Assembly (NCBI GenBank): GCA_903821905.1
Contig: CAIJMQ010000006.1
Span: 1 to 11,664 of the forward strand
DNA length: 11,664 nucleotides
Direction: 5' to 3'
Source: an uncultured bacterium
GTDB taxonomy: Bacteria; CAIJMQ01
A program made the position numbers and the translations under genes. Below, in pieces: positions 26-8,271 of the stretch; position 1 is the stretch's first letter; the number at the start of each line of letters is the position of its first letter. A model generated the notes under the pieces. It made no database searches and was not told where the DNA came from. It saw only the letters and a program-made list of their open reading frames with translations.

Positions 26-838
26 TTATTTGTTTTCATTTTGAGTAGAGTATCTATCTTTATTTTGTTCCCACCATTTTTGCCATTTCTCTGGGCTTCT
101 CCCAAAGTATTCTCCTGTTATATTCTTTAAAATTACTGCTGTTCGCCACTTCCCAAATTCATCCTCATTTTTAAAACCCATAATAAGCGGTTCTACTGCT
201 GGCTCACCTATTTCAATTATAGCTTTTGCAGCCTCCATTCTAACTTGATTATCTTCGTCCTTTAATGCAACGATAAGTGGTTTAGCTGCACGCTCGTCGC
301 CTATCTCTCCTAATATTTCTGCAGCTTTTATTCGAATGTAATTATTATCCTTATTATCTAATATTGAAATCAGTGACTTTACAGCAGGTTTACCTATTTT
401 AATTAAAGCTCTTACTGCTTTTTCTATAATATCTATATCATCATCTTTCAATGCAAAAATAAGGGGTTTTATTACTTGGTCACCACCTATTACATCTAAA
501 GCCTGTACTGCCCTATATCTAACTCGTTTATCTTCATCTTTTACTGAAAGACCAAGCGGTTCTATAGCGCGGTTGTCCTTTGTTTTGCCTAAAGCTCTTG
601 CTGCTCGCCAGCGTATTTCCGGATCCTTATCCTTTAGCGCGGCAATTAGAGGACCTACTGCAAGTTTGCCGAGTTTGGTTAAGTCCTTTGTCGCTTGTTC
701 CTTTACCCGCCAATCATCACTTTTTAATTGATCAATTGTTTTATTTACCTTATACATAGAAAATACCCAATAGCCAGTACCTATAAAAACCACCAGAGCC
801 AAAATCAGCAAGATTAAATTCCTTTTCTTAATTTTCAT
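26..838 (-). CDS. Membrane-anchored HEAT-repeat protein
   Basis: The protein has 270 residues. A basic N-terminus (KIKKR) is followed by one hydrophobic segment at about residues 7-26, read as an uncleaved signal anchor; by the positive-inside rule the rest would face the periplasm. Residues 33-240 are about six or seven HEAT (PBS-lyase-type) repeats of roughly 31 residues, with recurring PLI.ALKD.D..VR..AA.AL cores. Such alpha-solenoids bind other proteins; no catalytic residues are visible. The tail at about 239-262 (ITGEYFGRSPEKWQKWWEQN) is an aromatic cap motif seen after HEAT repeats in some uncultured Gram-negative lineages. It is the last visible gene of the run, 3 nt after the MarC-family stop, and has no clear Shine-Dalgarno, so it may depend on translation of the upstream gene. 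A scaffold role for the neighbouring membrane system is inference. The repeat-family call is firm; the function is unknown. Confidence 0.88.
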   Translation of the reverse strand: MKIKKRNLILLILALVVFIGTGYWVFSMYKVNKTIDQLKSDDWRVKEQATKDLTKLGKLAVGPLIAALKDKDPEIRWRAARALGKTKDNRAIEPLGLSVKDEDKRVRYRAVQALDVIGGDQVIKPLIFALKDDDIDIIEKAVRALIKIGKPAVKSLISILDNKDNNYIRIKAAEILGEIGDERAAKPLIVALKDEDNQVRMEAAKAIIEIGEPAVEPLIMGFKNEDEFGKWRTAVILKNITGEYFGRSPEKWQKWWEQNKDRYSTQNENK

Positions 839-841
839 AAT

Positions 842-1441
842 TTACTTAGATAGCATGACGTTTGTTGTAATGAACATCATTATTCCTTTTCTTATTATCA
901 TAATTGCTATTGCAGCAAGAAGAAGACTTGCTAATTTAGAAATGGTTTTTGAACCGGACTTACCAAGAACTTTATAAATAGAATCTGATAGCAAGAATAC
1001 GAAGCCTGCGATTAAAATGTTAACCATAGCTGCAGAGACGGTGGGAATGGGCCCATATTGACCTACCAAAAGAAGTATAGTTGTAAGAACTGCGGGACCT
1101 ACAATTAGAGGAACTCCTATGGGAACTGCACCTAAACTTTCGTGGTCTATTTCACGCTGTTTCTTTTCTCCCGTAATGATATCGATTATAGATATTATAA
1201 ACAGGAGCATTCCGCCTGCAACCATGAAATCGGCTACAGTAATGCCGAGTAAGTTAAAGAGGGATTTTCCAACTACAAGGAATACAAGTGATACTATTGT
1301 TGCCGTAATAATGGACTGTACTATGACACGGCGTCTCTGGGAATGGCTAAACTTTCCCGTCAAATTCATGAATACAGGCAATACTCCAAATGCATCTACC
1401 GCTACAAAAAGCGGAATAAAACAAAGCCAAAAATTAGCCAT
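842..1441 (-). CDS. MarC family integral membrane protein
   Basis: The protein has 199 residues, the usual family length (about 200), with about six membrane segments (roughly 4-26, 38-60, 66-89, 106-127, 134-153, 168-190). Family signatures are VAVDAFGVLPVF (13-24), VAGGMLLFI (74-82) and VPIGVPLIVGPAVLTT (106-121). Members were once linked to multiple antibiotic resistance through the mar locus, but that role is not supported and the transported substrate, if any, is unknown. The start is well fixed: AAGGAG lies 5 nt before the ATG, the best ribosome binding site in the window. It follows the ATP-grasp gene after 19 nt and precedes the HEAT-repeat gene by 3 nt, which argues for co-expression with the ligase group. 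The family call is confident, and it could as well be a general transporter-like protein unrelated to the ligases. Confidence 0.9.
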   Translation of the reverse strand: MANFWLCFIPLFVAVDAFGVLPVFMNLTGKFSHSQRRRVIVQSIITATIVSLVFLVVGKSLFNLLGITVADFMVAGGMLLFIISIIDIITGEKKQREIDHESLGAVPIGVPLIVGPAVLTTILLLVGQYGPIPTVSAAMVNILIAGFVFLLSDSIYKVLGKSGSKTISKLASLLLAAIAIMIIRKGIMMFITTNVMLSK

Positions 1442-1460: not shown

Positions 1461-2324
1461 CTACAATGTATCGATTATCGCTTCTATTATTTCTTCTACC
1501 ACCGAGTCAGGGTTTCCGTCCGGAGAATCGGACTGGAAACGCATATCACACTGGTCGTTCACATAATCGATTACAAAAAAATTGCCGTTATCCAACTGGG
1601 TAATTTCTGTAGAAAAGAACTCGAGTTCCGCGAACTTGCTTATCTTTCTGGTTATTCTCGTAAGTTCCCGGGAAAGTTTTCCTTCTGAAGAAGAAAGCCG
1701 ACGGGAAATATGCGTGATGTCATCCCAGAAACAGGGAATAACTTTACCGCAGACAAAAAAGACCCTGAACCAATATCTTTCGCCGTTAACTATGCGCGGG
1801 GTAATTTTCTTTTGGATAATAAGAACCCCATTGGGATTTTTGCTTCTGGCATTCATTATATCGGACACGGAAAAAGCTTCGGTAACTACTCCTTCTCCCC
1901 CACCCCCGACTTCCGGCTTTATAACAAAAGGTCTGCCTATAGGATTGAGCATTTCTTCTGTTATTTCATCGCTTGGGAAAAGTATTATGCTTTCGGGAAC
2001 ATTCAAGCCATTCCTCAAACATTCGATATGCATTATGGTCTTATCGTTACTGTGAAGGGTTTTGGCTGGTTCGTCTATTATTCTACAACCTTGTTTTTGA
2101 AGAAGATGGATAAGAGGCAGAAAAGCAGTATTGCAGTCTGTCGCTCTGTCGAATACTGTCCTGAATTTCAGAGAACCGTTTATGATTTTATCCATAGTCT
2201 CGCGGAGATTATAATTAGAAACCAGATAACTTTTTTTACCTCTTTTGTAACAAAGGGAATCCATGAGTTTTATAAATCTCTCATCATAATACCACTCCCA
2301 TAAAATACCGATATCCCAAATCAT
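1461..2324 (-). CDS. ATP-grasp family protein of unknown substrate
   Basis: The protein has 287 residues. An N-terminal pre-ATP-grasp-like part (1-90) starts DIGILWEWYYDERF. The ATP-grasp core follows: NDKTIMHIECLRNGLNVPES (93-112), the strand and glycine-rich loop FVIKPEVGGGGEGVV (133-147, K136 likely contacts ATP), the IIQKKI strand (169-174), RYWFRVFFVCGKVIPCFW (183-200), and the metal-binding end EFFSTEI (235-241) with VIDYVNDQCDMRFQS (251-265). E240, D253 and N256 are the likely Mg2+ ligands. Family enzymes form acyl phosphates and join them to an amine or thiol; the substrate here cannot be read. It starts 4 nt after the fused methyltransferase/ligase gene with no good Shine-Dalgarno, suggesting coupling. 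It is quite different in sequence from the two upstream ATP-grasp proteins, so it is not a recent duplicate. The fold call is firm; the function is unassigned. Confidence 0.82.
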   Translation of the reverse strand: MIWDIGILWEWYYDERFIKLMDSLCYKRGKKSYLVSNYNLRETMDKIINGSLKFRTVFDRATDCNTAFLPLIHLLQKQGCRIIDEPAKTLHSNDKTIMHIECLRNGLNVPESIILFPSDEITEEMLNPIGRPFVIKPEVGGGGEGVVTEAFSVSDIMNARSKNPNGVLIIQKKITPRIVNGERYWFRVFFVCGKVIPCFWDDITHISRRLSSSEGKLSRELTRITRKISKFAELEFFSTEITQLDNGNFFVIDYVNDQCDMRFQSDSPDGNPDSVVEEIIEAIIDTL

Positions 2325-2328
2325 ATGT

Positions 2329-4257
2329 TTATAATTTTAACCTTTTTTCAACCGAATCAAGAATCATTTTAAGCATTTCCGTATATGAAATGCCTGCAAA
2401 CTTTGCCATTTTTGCAAGATGCCCGTCCCAACACCAGCCGGGGTTGGGATTAACTTCCAAAAGCTTGGGACTGCCTTTACAGTCCAGCCTCCAATCAAAC
2501 CTGCAATAATCCCGGCACTGTAATCTCTCGAATAATTTAAGACAGCATTCTACAATAAATTTTTCCGTTTCCTGCGATAACCTTGCGGGAATAGTTTTTA
2601 TATTCCAATATGGTGAATCAGCAATCCATTTTGCTTCGTACCCGCATATTTTGGGAAGTCCTTTAGGCAATGCAGAATAATCTTCTTCGACTATAGGAAG
2701 AACTTTATATATTTCAGGCGGATTGCCTATTATTCCTACGCTCAAGTCTTTGCCGCCGAGAAACTCTTCCATAAGGATGGGTTTATCATATCCAAATGTT
2801 TCTCTTATTTCGGAAATAGCATTGACCAACTCTTCGGCGGTATTCGCCACATTTTTCTGTGTAATGCCGAAACTGCCGTCTCCAAAATTGGGTTTAACGA
2901 TTACAGGGAAACCAAAACCAAGTTCAAAAGTATTGTCTTCAGGTTTAACAAATAAAGCTTTAGGTACAGGAATTCCCATCTCTTTAGCAACTCCCCGTAC
3001 AATTGACTTATCGTAACAGGATGCAAGACACTGCGGTCCTGCACCGGTATAATGTATACCTATAATTTCGAGTAAAGCGGGGACATGAAGTTCTTGAGTG
3101 GCTTCATTATTGAAACCCTCATCACATAAATTTAAGACATAATCAATATTCCCTTTCAATTTCATTAATTCTTTAGCCAAAGTATCGTGATTATTAATAT
3201 ATGTAAATTGATATCCTTTTAAGTCTTTTAACACCGATTTTAATTGGTTAATAGTATATATGTCATCTTCATCAAAGACGGTACTAGGTTTCAAGATATC
3301 TTTTTTGTTGGGATCTCCGAAAACAACAGCTACTTTTCCTACTATATTTTTTGTTTCTCGTTTGACAGGTGCCCATTCTCTACCATTACGAGCCGAAACT
3401 ATGAGACGACGCTCCATCATGCCCAAATCCTGATTTCTCTTGGAATCTGTGGCAATTTCGCAATGAAAAGTTATATCATTAAATCCGGCAATCTCAAATA
3501 GATGAGCTAAAGTCTCTTTTGTATATAATCTTTCAGCATAAAACTGATCCGCTAGCACACCTTTCTCCACATGGGAAATAATTTCTCTTGAAATAAGGCG
3601 TTCTCTATCAGCAGAGAGTGAACGTTCCCGACAGACAAAATGTTTTTTGTCTATCCACTCCCAAGTACGACTTTGAAAATTATTCCTCACAAATTCTCCA
3701 TCAGCTACATCGATAATTACATTACCATTAGGTTTTAAAACCTTAAAAACTTCTCTCAAGACCCTCAAGTCATCATTCATAGTCTCAAAATATCCAAAAC
3801 TATTGCCAAGGATCATTACTACATCAAATATGTCGGGGGAATAAGGTAATTTTCTGGCATCTCCTTCCCTAAACTTAACATTCAAATTATCTTTCCTGGC
3901 ACATCCCTTAGCTTTCTGTACAAGATAATGAGAACGGTCTAATCCTTCTACATATTGAAACTTTCTTCTTGAAAGTTCCAGGGAATGTCTACCTTGGCCA
4001 CAGCATAAATCCAAAATTTTATTTTCTGTAGAAAGATTAAGAATTTGGGAGAATAGGTCAACTTCTTGATTGGTAATACTCTGGTCATCTACTACATCTG
4101 CATCAGTTTTGAGGTAAAGAGAATTAAAAATACTTCTCCACCAGTCAGGCTGAACATGTTCTTCGAGATTTGGAACAGGCCCTAATGTTTTCCTTCTGTG
4201 TCTTACGTTTTTATCTTTTTGAGATAGTTTTTCCTCAACGGATTTCTTATCATTCAT
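2329..4257 (-). CDS. Fused SAM methyltransferase and D-Ala-D-Ala-ligase-like ATP-grasp protein
   Basis: The protein has 642 residues in two domains. Residues about 27-290 are a class I SAM-dependent methyltransferase: motif I ILDLCCGQGRHSLEL (81-95), an acidic post-I loop EGLDRS (104-109), and motif IV DVVMILGNSFGYF (145-157). Residues about 305-640 are ATP-grasp, most like D-Ala-D-Ala ligases: VAVVFGD (309-315), NLCDEGFNNEA (376-386), HYTGAGPQCLASCYDKSIVR (402-421), FPVIVKPNFGDGSFGI (450-465), ILMEEFLGGKDLSVGI (494-509), and CRFDWR with LLEVNPNPG (585-590, 599-607). D588, E601 and N603 are likely metal ligands. A typical Ddl has about 300-370 residues and no methyltransferase. True cell-wall Ddl activity is possible but unlikely in this setting. 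The gene lies 19 nt after the RimK-like ligase and 4 nt before another ATP-grasp gene. I infer that it methylates and ligates the same or successive intermediates; the substrates are unknown. No Shine-Dalgarno is seen, but TATAAT lies 13 nt before the ATG. Confidence 0.87.
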   Translation of the reverse strand: MNDKKSVEEKLSQKDKNVRHRRKTLGPVPNLEEHVQPDWWRSIFNSLYLKTDADVVDDQSITNQEVDLFSQILNLSTENKILDLCCGQGRHSLELSRRKFQYVEGLDRSHYLVQKAKGCARKDNLNVKFREGDARKLPYSPDIFDVVMILGNSFGYFETMNDDLRVLREVFKVLKPNGNVIIDVADGEFVRNNFQSRTWEWIDKKHFVCRERSLSADRERLISREIISHVEKGVLADQFYAERLYTKETLAHLFEIAGFNDITFHCEIATDSKRNQDLGMMERRLIVSARNGREWAPVKRETKNIVGKVAVVFGDPNKKDILKPSTVFDEDDIYTINQLKSVLKDLKGYQFTYINNHDTLAKELMKLKGNIDYVLNLCDEGFNNEATQELHVPALLEIIGIHYTGAGPQCLASCYDKSIVRGVAKEMGIPVPKALFVKPEDNTFELGFGFPVIVKPNFGDGSFGITQKNVANTAEELVNAISEIRETFGYDKPILMEEFLGGKDLSVGIIGNPPEIYKVLPIVEEDYSALPKGLPKICGYEAKWIADSPYWNIKTIPARLSQETEKFIVECCLKLFERLQCRDYCRFDWRLDCKGSPKLLEVNPNPGWCWDGHLAKMAKFAGISYTEMLKMILDSVEKRLKL

Positions 4258-4276
4258 AAATTTTTAGTACATTATA

Positions 4277-5170
4277 TTAGGCTTTCCCTTTTATTTGGTC
4301 AATTGCTCTAAGTTTGGGGAGCAATCCCCGGGAATTAACTATTTGTATAGATAGACCTGGTCTAGCATTCAGTTCCATAACAAGAGGACCTCTGCCTTTA
4401 TGTAAAACAATATCCACTCCAACATATCCTAAACCCGTTATACTTGATGCTTTAACAGCCATTTTTAGGATTCTTCTCCAGTAAGGAATAAGAATATTGT
4501 TAATTGTGAAACCTGTATCTGGATGAATATTGGTTATTTTGTTCTTATAAACACCGGACAATGTCTTGCCGGTTTCCATATCTATTCCTACTCCTATAGC
4601 CCCAGCGTGAATATTGGCGCATCCTTTAGAAACAACTGTAGGAAGTCTAAGCATAGCCATTGCCGATACTCCTTTATATACAATTATTCTAATATCTGGA
4701 AGACCATTGAGGGCAATTGAACGGAAAATATTGTGTGATTCAACCTTCTCCTCGATAAAAGCTATGTCTGGTTTAGAACCCAAAGAAAAGGTACCGGACA
4801 ATATCGAAGATATATGTAACGAAATATCTTTTAAACCCAATATATTTCCCTCCTGGTCTGTCCAAAGGTTTTCTTTTTTCTTACTAAGAATAAGAATACC
4901 GTAGCCACGAGCACCTCTATCAGGTTTGATTACAAATGAACTAAAAGAATTAATTCTTTCCCTTAGATATTTTAATTCGCAGTGAGTATTGAATACGGCA
5001 TAAATTTCAGGAACAGGAATATTATTGGAAGTTAACAGTTTTTTAGTAAGAAGTTTATTGTCAACAAGTGGATACTTATTTCTATCATTTACTTTAAATA
5101 AATAATCCAGATTTCTGCGGTTAATACCAAGGATTTCGTTTTGGGGAATTTTAGTGAAAGAATGGAACAT
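4277..5170 (-). CDS. RimK-related ATP-grasp ligase (alpha-L-glutamate ligase-like)
   Basis: The protein has 297 residues and matches end to end the ATP-grasp family named alpha-L-glutamate ligase-like, a relative of RimK. Visible blocks are LGINRRN (14-20), KYPLVDNKLLTKKLL (32-46), FVIKPDRGARGYGIL (79-93), LSGTFSLGSKPDIAFIEEKV (124-143), GLPDIRIIVYKG (156-167), MAMLRLPT (171-178), ANIHAGAIGVGIDMETG (185-201), HPDTG (216-220), and GLGYVGVDIVL with GPLVMELNARPGLSIQI (247-257, 261-277). D253, E266 and N268 are the expected metal ligands, so the enzyme looks intact. The family is usually encoded beside a 7TM/transglutaminase-like membrane protein, and here the 7TM gene ends 1 nt before this ATG (TAATATG), which suggests coupled translation. 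Predicted reaction: ATP-dependent addition of an amino acid, possibly glutamate, to a carboxyl acceptor. The acceptor is unknown, and the glutamate specificity is only the family label. Confidence 0.9.
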   Translation of the reverse strand: MFHSFTKIPQNEILGINRRNLDYLFKVNDRNKYPLVDNKLLTKKLLTSNNIPVPEIYAVFNTHCELKYLRERINSFSSFVIKPDRGARGYGILILSKKKENLWTDQEGNILGLKDISLHISSILSGTFSLGSKPDIAFIEEKVESHNIFRSIALNGLPDIRIIVYKGVSAMAMLRLPTVVSKGCANIHAGAIGVGIDMETGKTLSGVYKNKITNIHPDTGFTINNILIPYWRRILKMAVKASSITGLGYVGVDIVLHKGRGPLVMELNARPGLSIQIVNSRGLLPKLRAIDQIKGKA

Positions 5171-5171
5171 A

Positions 5172-5885
5172 TTATAATCTGTTTATATGTCTAAATCTTA
5201 ATAACTCTGTCCATCGCAAGCCTGTATAGCACCCAATAACAATCAATAATCCCAGAACAGCCAATAGGAGTTCAGGAAATAAAGACATGAAAAGTTGAAT
5301 AACTTCAAAAGAGATAATCCAGTATACTAAACACGCAACCATAATTGTTCCAAGAGATACAATAAGAGAATATTGGGTCCCGCTTTCTAATTGAGTGATA
5401 GAAAAACGCTCTACAACCATAATCATAATAATCAAAGGTAAAAGATTGAAGCAGGAAATAGTTCTTACCCCTGCCTGATAACTGACGATAATTAAAGCAA
5501 CAAGAACAACAATAACAAAAGTGATGGTAAATGAAAGCCGAGAAATAAACAACAACTTAAATTTATCTAATATTAACTTTGCAAAAATACTTATTATTAT
5601 CACAAAAAAGAAAAGCACTAACCCCCAGATTAAACGCGTTTCCATTAAAACAATAGCCAGTAGCACAGGAATGAATGTACCAAAAGTATTTACGCCAATA
5701 ACATTGCGGAATATAGCTACAATTAATAAACCCAGCGGCACTACCAGAAGTAAACTAACTGTTTGTTGTATATTAAAAGGCAAAGATAAAACAGTCCATC
5801 CCCTCTTTAAAAAAATTATTCTATAAATTACGATTAAACAAGAAAGAATTATCAGAGAGAGCGCAAAATTAATTGATTTTTTCAT
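5172..5885 (-). CDS. 7TM membrane protein of the transglutaminase-7TM family, lacking the soluble domain
   Basis: The protein has 237 mostly hydrophobic residues. From about residue 36 it follows the 7TM domain normally found at the C-terminus of inactive-transglutaminase membrane proteins (UUP1 type): VVPLGLLIVAIFRNVIGVNT (48-67), FGTFIPVLLAIVLMETRLIW (68-87), FISRLSFTITFVIV (113-126), MIMVVERFSITQLESG (154-169), SLFPELLLAVLGLL (201-214), and CYTGLRWTELLRFR (219-232). The full-length family has about 500 residues: an N-terminal membrane segment, a periplasmic transglutaminase-like domain, then 7TM. Here one hydrophobic segment (about 7-26) is followed almost at once by the 7TM part, so the soluble domain is absent with no trace of a frameshift. 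It is paired with the RimK-like ligase 1 nt downstream, the usual partnership. The start is the first ATG; there is no Shine-Dalgarno, but a promoter-like sequence lies just upstream. Confidence 0.85.
   Translation of the reverse strand: MKKSINFALSLIILSCLIVIYRIIFLKRGWTVLSLPFNIQQTVSLLLVVPLGLLIVAIFRNVIGVNTFGTFIPVLLAIVLMETRLIWGLVLFFFVIIISIFAKLILDKFKLLFISRLSFTITFVIVVLVALIIVSYQAGVRTISCFNLLPLIIMIMVVERFSITQLESGTQYSLIVSLGTIMVACLVYWIISFEVIQLFMSLFPELLLAVLGLLIVIGCYTGLRWTELLRFRHINRL

Positions 5886-5935: not shown

Positions 5936-8271
<2,336 letters not shown>

Follow-up and report, generated by a model that had tools for sequence, protein, structure and literature searches.

We analysed a stretch of 11,664 nt from an uncultured bacterium (contig CAIJMQ010000006.1; hereafter the window), which carries a run of genes for a seven-transmembrane (7TM) protein and three ATP-grasp ligases, one of them fused to a methyltransferase. 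The operon joins parts of three modules that occur separately: the 7TM–RloC pair, the methyltransferase–Ddl-like fusion and a third ligase, here called G3. We tentatively favour reading it as a lineage-specific composite operon, in which a membrane-linked, RloBC-type pathway for a non-ribosomal acidic poly- or oligo-amino acid has taken up two further ligases and a methyltransferase. The operon is known from one contig of one genome, a metagenome-assembled genome (MAG) of 1.30 Mb that is 84% complete. Its first four genes are the following.

5172-5885, minus strand: RloB-type 7TM integral membrane protein, 237 amino acids, without the periplasmic inactive-transglutaminase domain (PF14402, 166 bits).
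4277-5170, minus strand: RloC-type ATP-grasp ligase (alpha-L-glutamate ligase-like), 297 amino acids (TIGR02291, 352.6 bits; PF14397, 265 bits).
2329-4257, minus strand: S-adenosylmethionine (SAM) methyltransferase fused to a non-canonical Ddl-like ATP-grasp ligase, 642 amino acids (Methyltransf_31/25 and Dala_Dala_lig_C).
1461-2324, minus strand: G3, a RimK/LysX-fold ATP-grasp ligase with an invariant WEWxYD N-terminal motif, 287 amino acids (fold model and 14-member alignment).

The four genes are intact and, as an earlier note on this DNA had described, lie on one strand with gaps of 1, 19 and 4 nt; each has an ATG start. The glycine-rich/Lys and acidic–Asn motifs were found in all three ATP-grasp proteins (in G3 as D-x-x-N), and the three belong to distinct families, in agreement with its view that they are not recent duplicates.

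Concerning the 7TM protein, its PF14402 score stands against a Pfam cut-off of 25 bits. Only the C-terminal positions 301–504 of the 508 in the RloB model NF052267 are matched, so that the 7TM part is present and the transglutaminase part is absent. The AlphaFold2 model has a predicted local distance difference test (pLDDT) score of 89.7. A sequence search of the PDB gave no match, and no transport fold can be claimed for the protein because Foldseek returned nothing for the model at E ≤ 0.001; the consistent top rows for the model are RnfA/NqrD subunits (Z 7.5–9.4 over about 125 residues), which is below the telling level for helical bundles. The first ligase exceeds the NCBIfam cut-off of 314.2 bits for TIGR02291 and shares 44.5% identity with the protein annotated as RloC in a Legionella rloABC operon. 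The earlier note called it RimK-like; it is indeed an ATP-grasp ligase, but of the RloC type (PF14397), without the RimK N-terminal domain, and is not RimK itself.

The association of such a 7TM protein with a ligase was reportedly described by Iyer et al. in 2009, likely for the first time. Judged from sequence, the pair in the window is the core (rloB and rloC) of the Pseudomonas rloABC operon. The association is therefore known, as the earlier note held, but better known than it allowed, since rloB and rloC have published phenotypes (PMC12239564). In P. aeruginosa, RloA is a secreted retropepsin which cuts runs of at least eight glutamates, RloB combines an inactive transglutaminase with a 7TM region in one protein and RloC is an ATP-grasp protein; the triple rloA mutant has a hypo-osmotic defect, from which it is rescued when rloB or rloC is deleted, and rlo mutants show cell-shape and ampicillin phenotypes (PMC12239564). 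The poly-glutamate cleavage and the rescue fit a scheme in which RloBC would make what RloA removes. In Shewanella, the gene for the inactive transglutaminase with the 7TM region is also a hypervesiculation locus (PMC12096838).

The fusion protein contains Methyltransf_31 at amino acids 77–186 (1e-19) and Dala_Dala_lig_C at 425–633 (1e-26, 94 bits; both Pfam), with the SAM motif at 81–91 and the metal-site motif EVNPNPGWCWDGHL. Its family is present in 28 of the 386 sampled genomes (about 7%), nearly always at full length, and most residues of the SAM motif and the metal site are invariant, by which both halves look active. The ligase domains form a 25-member clade of their own (support 100/100), apart from both canonical Ddl and the tandem Ddl-like ligases; the window's protein has both domains, falls in this clade and keeps the SAM motif and NPNPGWC (25 rows). 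The nearest solved relatives of the ligase are VanA and Ddl. In the alignment, however, two canonical Ddl residues are replaced, Tyr216 by Trp544 (within YEAKW) and Ser281 by Gly612, where Tyr216 and Ser281 are in E. coli DdlB numbering. The YEAKW motif is common to the fusion and the aligned Ddl-like ligases of the G3 clusters described below. The plasmid search with the fusion gave separate Ddl-like or Van ligases only. Within the MAG the fusion is the only Ddl-like ligase of its type found, and no second Ddl-like gene was found; one match in the same genome (L002), considered as a Ddl, was dropped because its sequence is by eye that of a carbamoyl-phosphate synthase.

While curated families make the assignment of the other three genes solid, G3 has no Pfam match above cut-off and reaches 42 bits against the rimK model TIGR00768 (6.5e-11), below the cut-off of 143 for that curated family. 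Its AlphaFold2 model (pLDDT 92.4, 14 homologues) is that of a complete RimK/LysX-like ATP-grasp protein, whose closest fold is RimK (5zct, Z 22.2), followed by LysX/ArgX and then closely by Ddl (Z 20–22). The metal motif is unusual, with D-x-x-N (D253, N256) in place of E-x-N, and the alignment of 14 members has 43 invariant columns. G3 was found in two of 98 genomes, the window's included, and in 12 loci of the GTDB contig collection, which were detected by two peptide patterns only; this makes 13 genomes elsewhere in all. The plasmid search with G3 gave no match. In the following loci G3 is the last gene of a cluster with the order Ddl-like, an optional second Ddl-like, GNAT, KamA and G3.

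L038:6519-10256
L060:7006-10903
L062:5960-10888
L064:6254-10879
L067:6258-10888
L069:6244-10882

Such clusters are spread over several phyla, among them Auribacterota, Chlamydiae and KSB1. In the KamA of L038 the two aspartates that bind lysine in lysine 2,3-aminomutase are conserved (D293 and D330), which makes beta-lysine the likely building block in that cluster, and the KamA/GNAT/Ddl-like/G3 clusters look like an undescribed beta-lysine peptide pathway. All 12 database G3 genomes carry Ddl-like ligases to which the fusion is closer than it is to canonical Ddl. The association of G3 with tandem Ddl-like genes gives a Fisher p of about 5e-11, a value that is indicative only, given an approximate background (about 10/96) and related genomes. 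At L061 G3 is the first gene of the cluster and KamA is absent; there (6040-13465) G3, two Ddl-like ligases and GNAT lie beside what are by eye an arginine decarboxylase, an agmatinase and a deoxyhypusine synthase, neighbours hinting at a polyamine substrate. Also, on plasmid pTHIMO01 of Thioflavicoccus mobilis (L073:4479-9960) a Ddl-like ligase stands beside a diaminobutyrate aminotransferase, SbnA, an ornithine-cyclodeaminase-like gene and KamA, a probable diamino-acid peptide cluster.

The recurrence of the 7TM/ligase pair, and of further ligases behind it, extends to another phylum, that of genome G065 (probably Patescibacteria). PF14402 was found in 57 of the 192 genomes of this phylum, mostly of 0.5–1.4 Mb, and many of the matches lie in frames of only about 215–325 amino acids. 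The fetched loci were chosen for such short frames and are thus non-random; in 12 of the 15 that could be judged, an ATP-grasp protein (sometimes two) follows RloC or extends it as a fusion. Adding ligases to a 7TM–RloC pair that lacks the transglutaminase is thus a recurrent tactic, but the ligases differ from those of the window. This recurrence supports one part of the earlier note's interpretation. By comparison, no extra ATP-grasp gene was detected in the five loci with the long form of RloB (L103, L167–L169 and L201). In this phylum RloC often has a retropepsin-like domain added at its C-terminus and lies directly after the transglutaminase-less 7TM gene (L171–L186). Within the fetched regions of seven loci there are MATCAP-type carboxypeptidases (tubulin carboxypeptidase family), near the 7TM–RloC–ATP-grasp operons, as follows.

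L171:2407-3579
L173:4043-5002
L174:1925-3349
L180:7657-9042
L182:9758-10987
L184:1-840
L185:11717-12001

The MATCAP family includes deglutamylases among its members (PMC10499314). The ligase and the MATCAP-type carboxypeptidase near 7TM–RloC are possibly a pair like that of tubulin tail modification. At L105:4915-6079 (G065), two short fragments that are by eye ATP-grasp-like follow 7TM–RloC–retropepsin, and reflect decay or a sequencing error; the corresponding genes are intact in two other genomes of that genus, G390 and G506. A suspected 7TM–RloC fusion in G054 was dropped, as its overlapping frames proved to be two matches in different frames.

In the window, the minus-strand order is histidine kinase, response regulator, lpxD, idh, purA, then 7TM, RloC, fusion, G3, MarC and HEAT. 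The four genes are thus an arbitrary cut, because the co-directional run extends through a MarC and a HEAT-repeat gene, separated by 19 nt (G3/MarC) and 3 nt (MarC/HEAT); MarC probably shares a transcript with the four. The gap between purA and the 7TM gene is 50 nt. The flanking features are listed below.

842-1441, minus strand: MarC-family membrane protein (PF01914, 126 bits), 19 nt after G3, with a ribosome-binding-like site AAGGAGA.
26-838, minus strand: HEAT-repeat protein with an N-terminal hydrophobic segment (PF13646, 130 bits), 3 nt after MarC.
5936-7237, minus strand: purA, the conserved upstream flank (NF002223, 610 bits).

Three sister-genus genomes have purA, idh, lpxD and the response regulator in the same order with 79–88% identity (purA 83%). 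In the two whose contig runs past purA, other transporter-like genes occupy that place and the block is absent; moreover, the fusion, G3 and the 7TM protein are absent genome-wide from the three sister-genus genomes and from three genomes of the same class. The block is therefore lineage-specific: either this lineage gained it or the sisters lost it.

What we infer from this arrangement concerns the substrate, the methyl acceptor, the order of steps, export and the joint function. ATP-grasp ligases convert a carboxylate to an acyl-phosphate, which is then joined to an amine. By analogy with Pseudomonas rlo genetics, the 7TM protein would hold RloC at the inner membrane, where RloC would link amino acids, probably glutamate, by a non-ribosomal route; the resulting short acidic chain may act at the membrane or pass across it. 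The fusion would activate the carboxylate of one amino acid or peptide, link a second amine to it and methylate the substrate or the product, and G3 may add a further residue or a cap. The tight spacing, the existence of the block as a unit behind purA that is missing in the sisters, the further ligases behind 7TM–RloC pairs in the phylum of G065, and the nearest solved folds of G3 (RimK, a poly-glutamate synthetase, and LysX/ArgX) argue for such a joint pathway, as do the published RloA results, the retropepsin-like domains and MATCAP-type carboxypeptidases of that phylum and the Ddl-like ligases akin to the fusion in all 12 database G3 genomes. A bolder version, which we consider unlikely, is that one pathway produces methylated non-ribosomal peptides of mixed composition that are handled at the membrane and form a new class: RloC would make the chain, the fusion and G3 would branch, cap or methylate it, the 7TM protein would export or anchor it, and the transglutaminase-less 7TM–RloC pair would be a general, exchangeable platform.

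Several results weigh against the composite reading. By the neighbourhood check that the earlier note had named as a possible refutation, one conserved system of four genes is not supported: the exact set occurs in no other genome examined, the 12 database genomes with G3 all lack the fusion, and the fusion is solitary in all 24 other inspected loci, with no neighbouring gene family in common (the window is excluded from the 24, one locus ends at a contig end, and the family includes L106–L127). The fusion can thus work without 7TM, RloC or G3. The usual partners of G3 (KamA, GNAT and two stand-alone Ddl-like ligases) are absent from the window, and a search of the MAG for KamA, run without a positive control, gave no match. 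The lack of KamA and of a second Ddl-like gene in the MAG suggests that the fusion could replace the usual Ddl-like partner of G3. There is no RloA retropepsin in the window, and in the MAG (at the completeness given above) PF05618 reaches only 13.9 bits against a cut-off of 27, in an open reading frame that resembles a quinolinate synthase by eye. As RloA is undetectable and the transglutaminase domain is absent, what holds for Pseudomonas may not apply here. The main rival, by which two unrelated pathways share one transcript, is a serious possibility, and the data do not separate it from the composite pathway: RloBC would have an envelope job, and the fusion and G3, together or not, would make a soluble peptide-like metabolite, for example a methylated dipeptide osmolyte or cofactor. 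This agrees with the solitary fusion loci, with G3 clusters that have no 7TM gene, with the continuation of the run into the unrelated MarC and HEAT genes, and with a fusion that is widespread without RloB (28 of 386 genomes against 8 of 386, overlapping only in G000 and in G315, where the two lie on different contigs). It accounts less well for gaps of 1–19 nt, for a single block missing in sister genomes and for the extra ligases behind other 7TM–RloC pairs.

The remaining explanations are less probable. A role of the fusion and G3 in modifying peptidoglycan precursors, as a ligase branch that makes D-Ala-X or X-D-Ala, and of 7TM–RloC as envelope machinery, is improbable: the Ddl-like domain with its VanA and Ddl relatives and the phenotypes of the rlo mutants are in its favour, but both Ddl positions examined are changed, the clade stands apart from Ddl and a canonical ddl exists as a separate gene in the sister genome. 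An assembly or binning artefact, with a false join between purA and the block, is very improbable. The sequence is a MAG contig, the GC content at third codon positions is 0.41 in G3 against 0.22–0.29 in core genes, and the codon use of MarC and HEAT correlates less with core genes; however, 7TM, RloC and the fusion (0.26–0.30) match the core, and the join lies in the 50-nt gap without a sharp composition break. Least credible of all is a graspetide-like cluster for a ribosomally synthesised and post-translationally modified peptide, whose ligases would cyclise or extend a genetically encoded chain; the G3 model also resembles the macrocyclases PsnB and AMdnB, but RimK and LysX outrank the graspetide enzymes as fold matches. 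The gaps, of 1–50 nt, are too short to hold a same-strand precursor gene, and an embedded precursor was rejected for this reason.

In Pseudomonas, the rlo genes have an influence on osmotic tolerance, resistance to antibiotics and biofilm. Natural variants which add, swap or fuse ligases round a 7TM–RloC core are concrete minimal systems for finding what RloB and RloC make; together with the retropepsin-like domain and the nearby MATCAP-type carboxypeptidase in other bacteria, they point to an amino-acid chain that is made and trimmed. The solitary methyltransferase–Ddl-like fusion and G3 are two testable ligase families.

Compared with known systems, the rloABC operon of Pseudomonas aeruginosa and the Legionella adelaidensis plasmid copy (L201) share with the window a 7TM protein followed directly by an RloC-type ligase, whereas the window has neither the retropepsin RloA nor the inactive-transglutaminase domain and adds two ligases and a methyltransferase. 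The transglutaminase-less 7TM/RloC(-retropepsin) operons of the phylum of G065 likewise have a 7TM-only protein, RloC and then one or two ATP-grasp genes in line, but the ligases that they add belong to other RimK or ATP-grasp_3 types, their RloC usually has the fused retropepsin-like domain and no methyltransferase was seen in them. The solitary fusion family has the same architecture (49–71% identity) and the NPNPGWC motif, whereas its members elsewhere stand alone. The KamA–GNAT–tandem Ddl-like–G3 clusters share a G3 orthologue (33–44% identity) and a non-canonical Ddl-like ligase; unlike the window, they have a lysine 2,3-aminomutase-type KamA, GNAT and, as a rule, a pair of stand-alone Ddl-like ligases, and no 7TM, RloC or methyltransferase. 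Finally, G3 has the fold (Z about 22) and the general chemistry of the RimK/LysX/ArgX amino-acid ligases, from which it differs by an identity of only about 13–18%, the D-x-x-N metal motif and the invariant WEWxYD motif.

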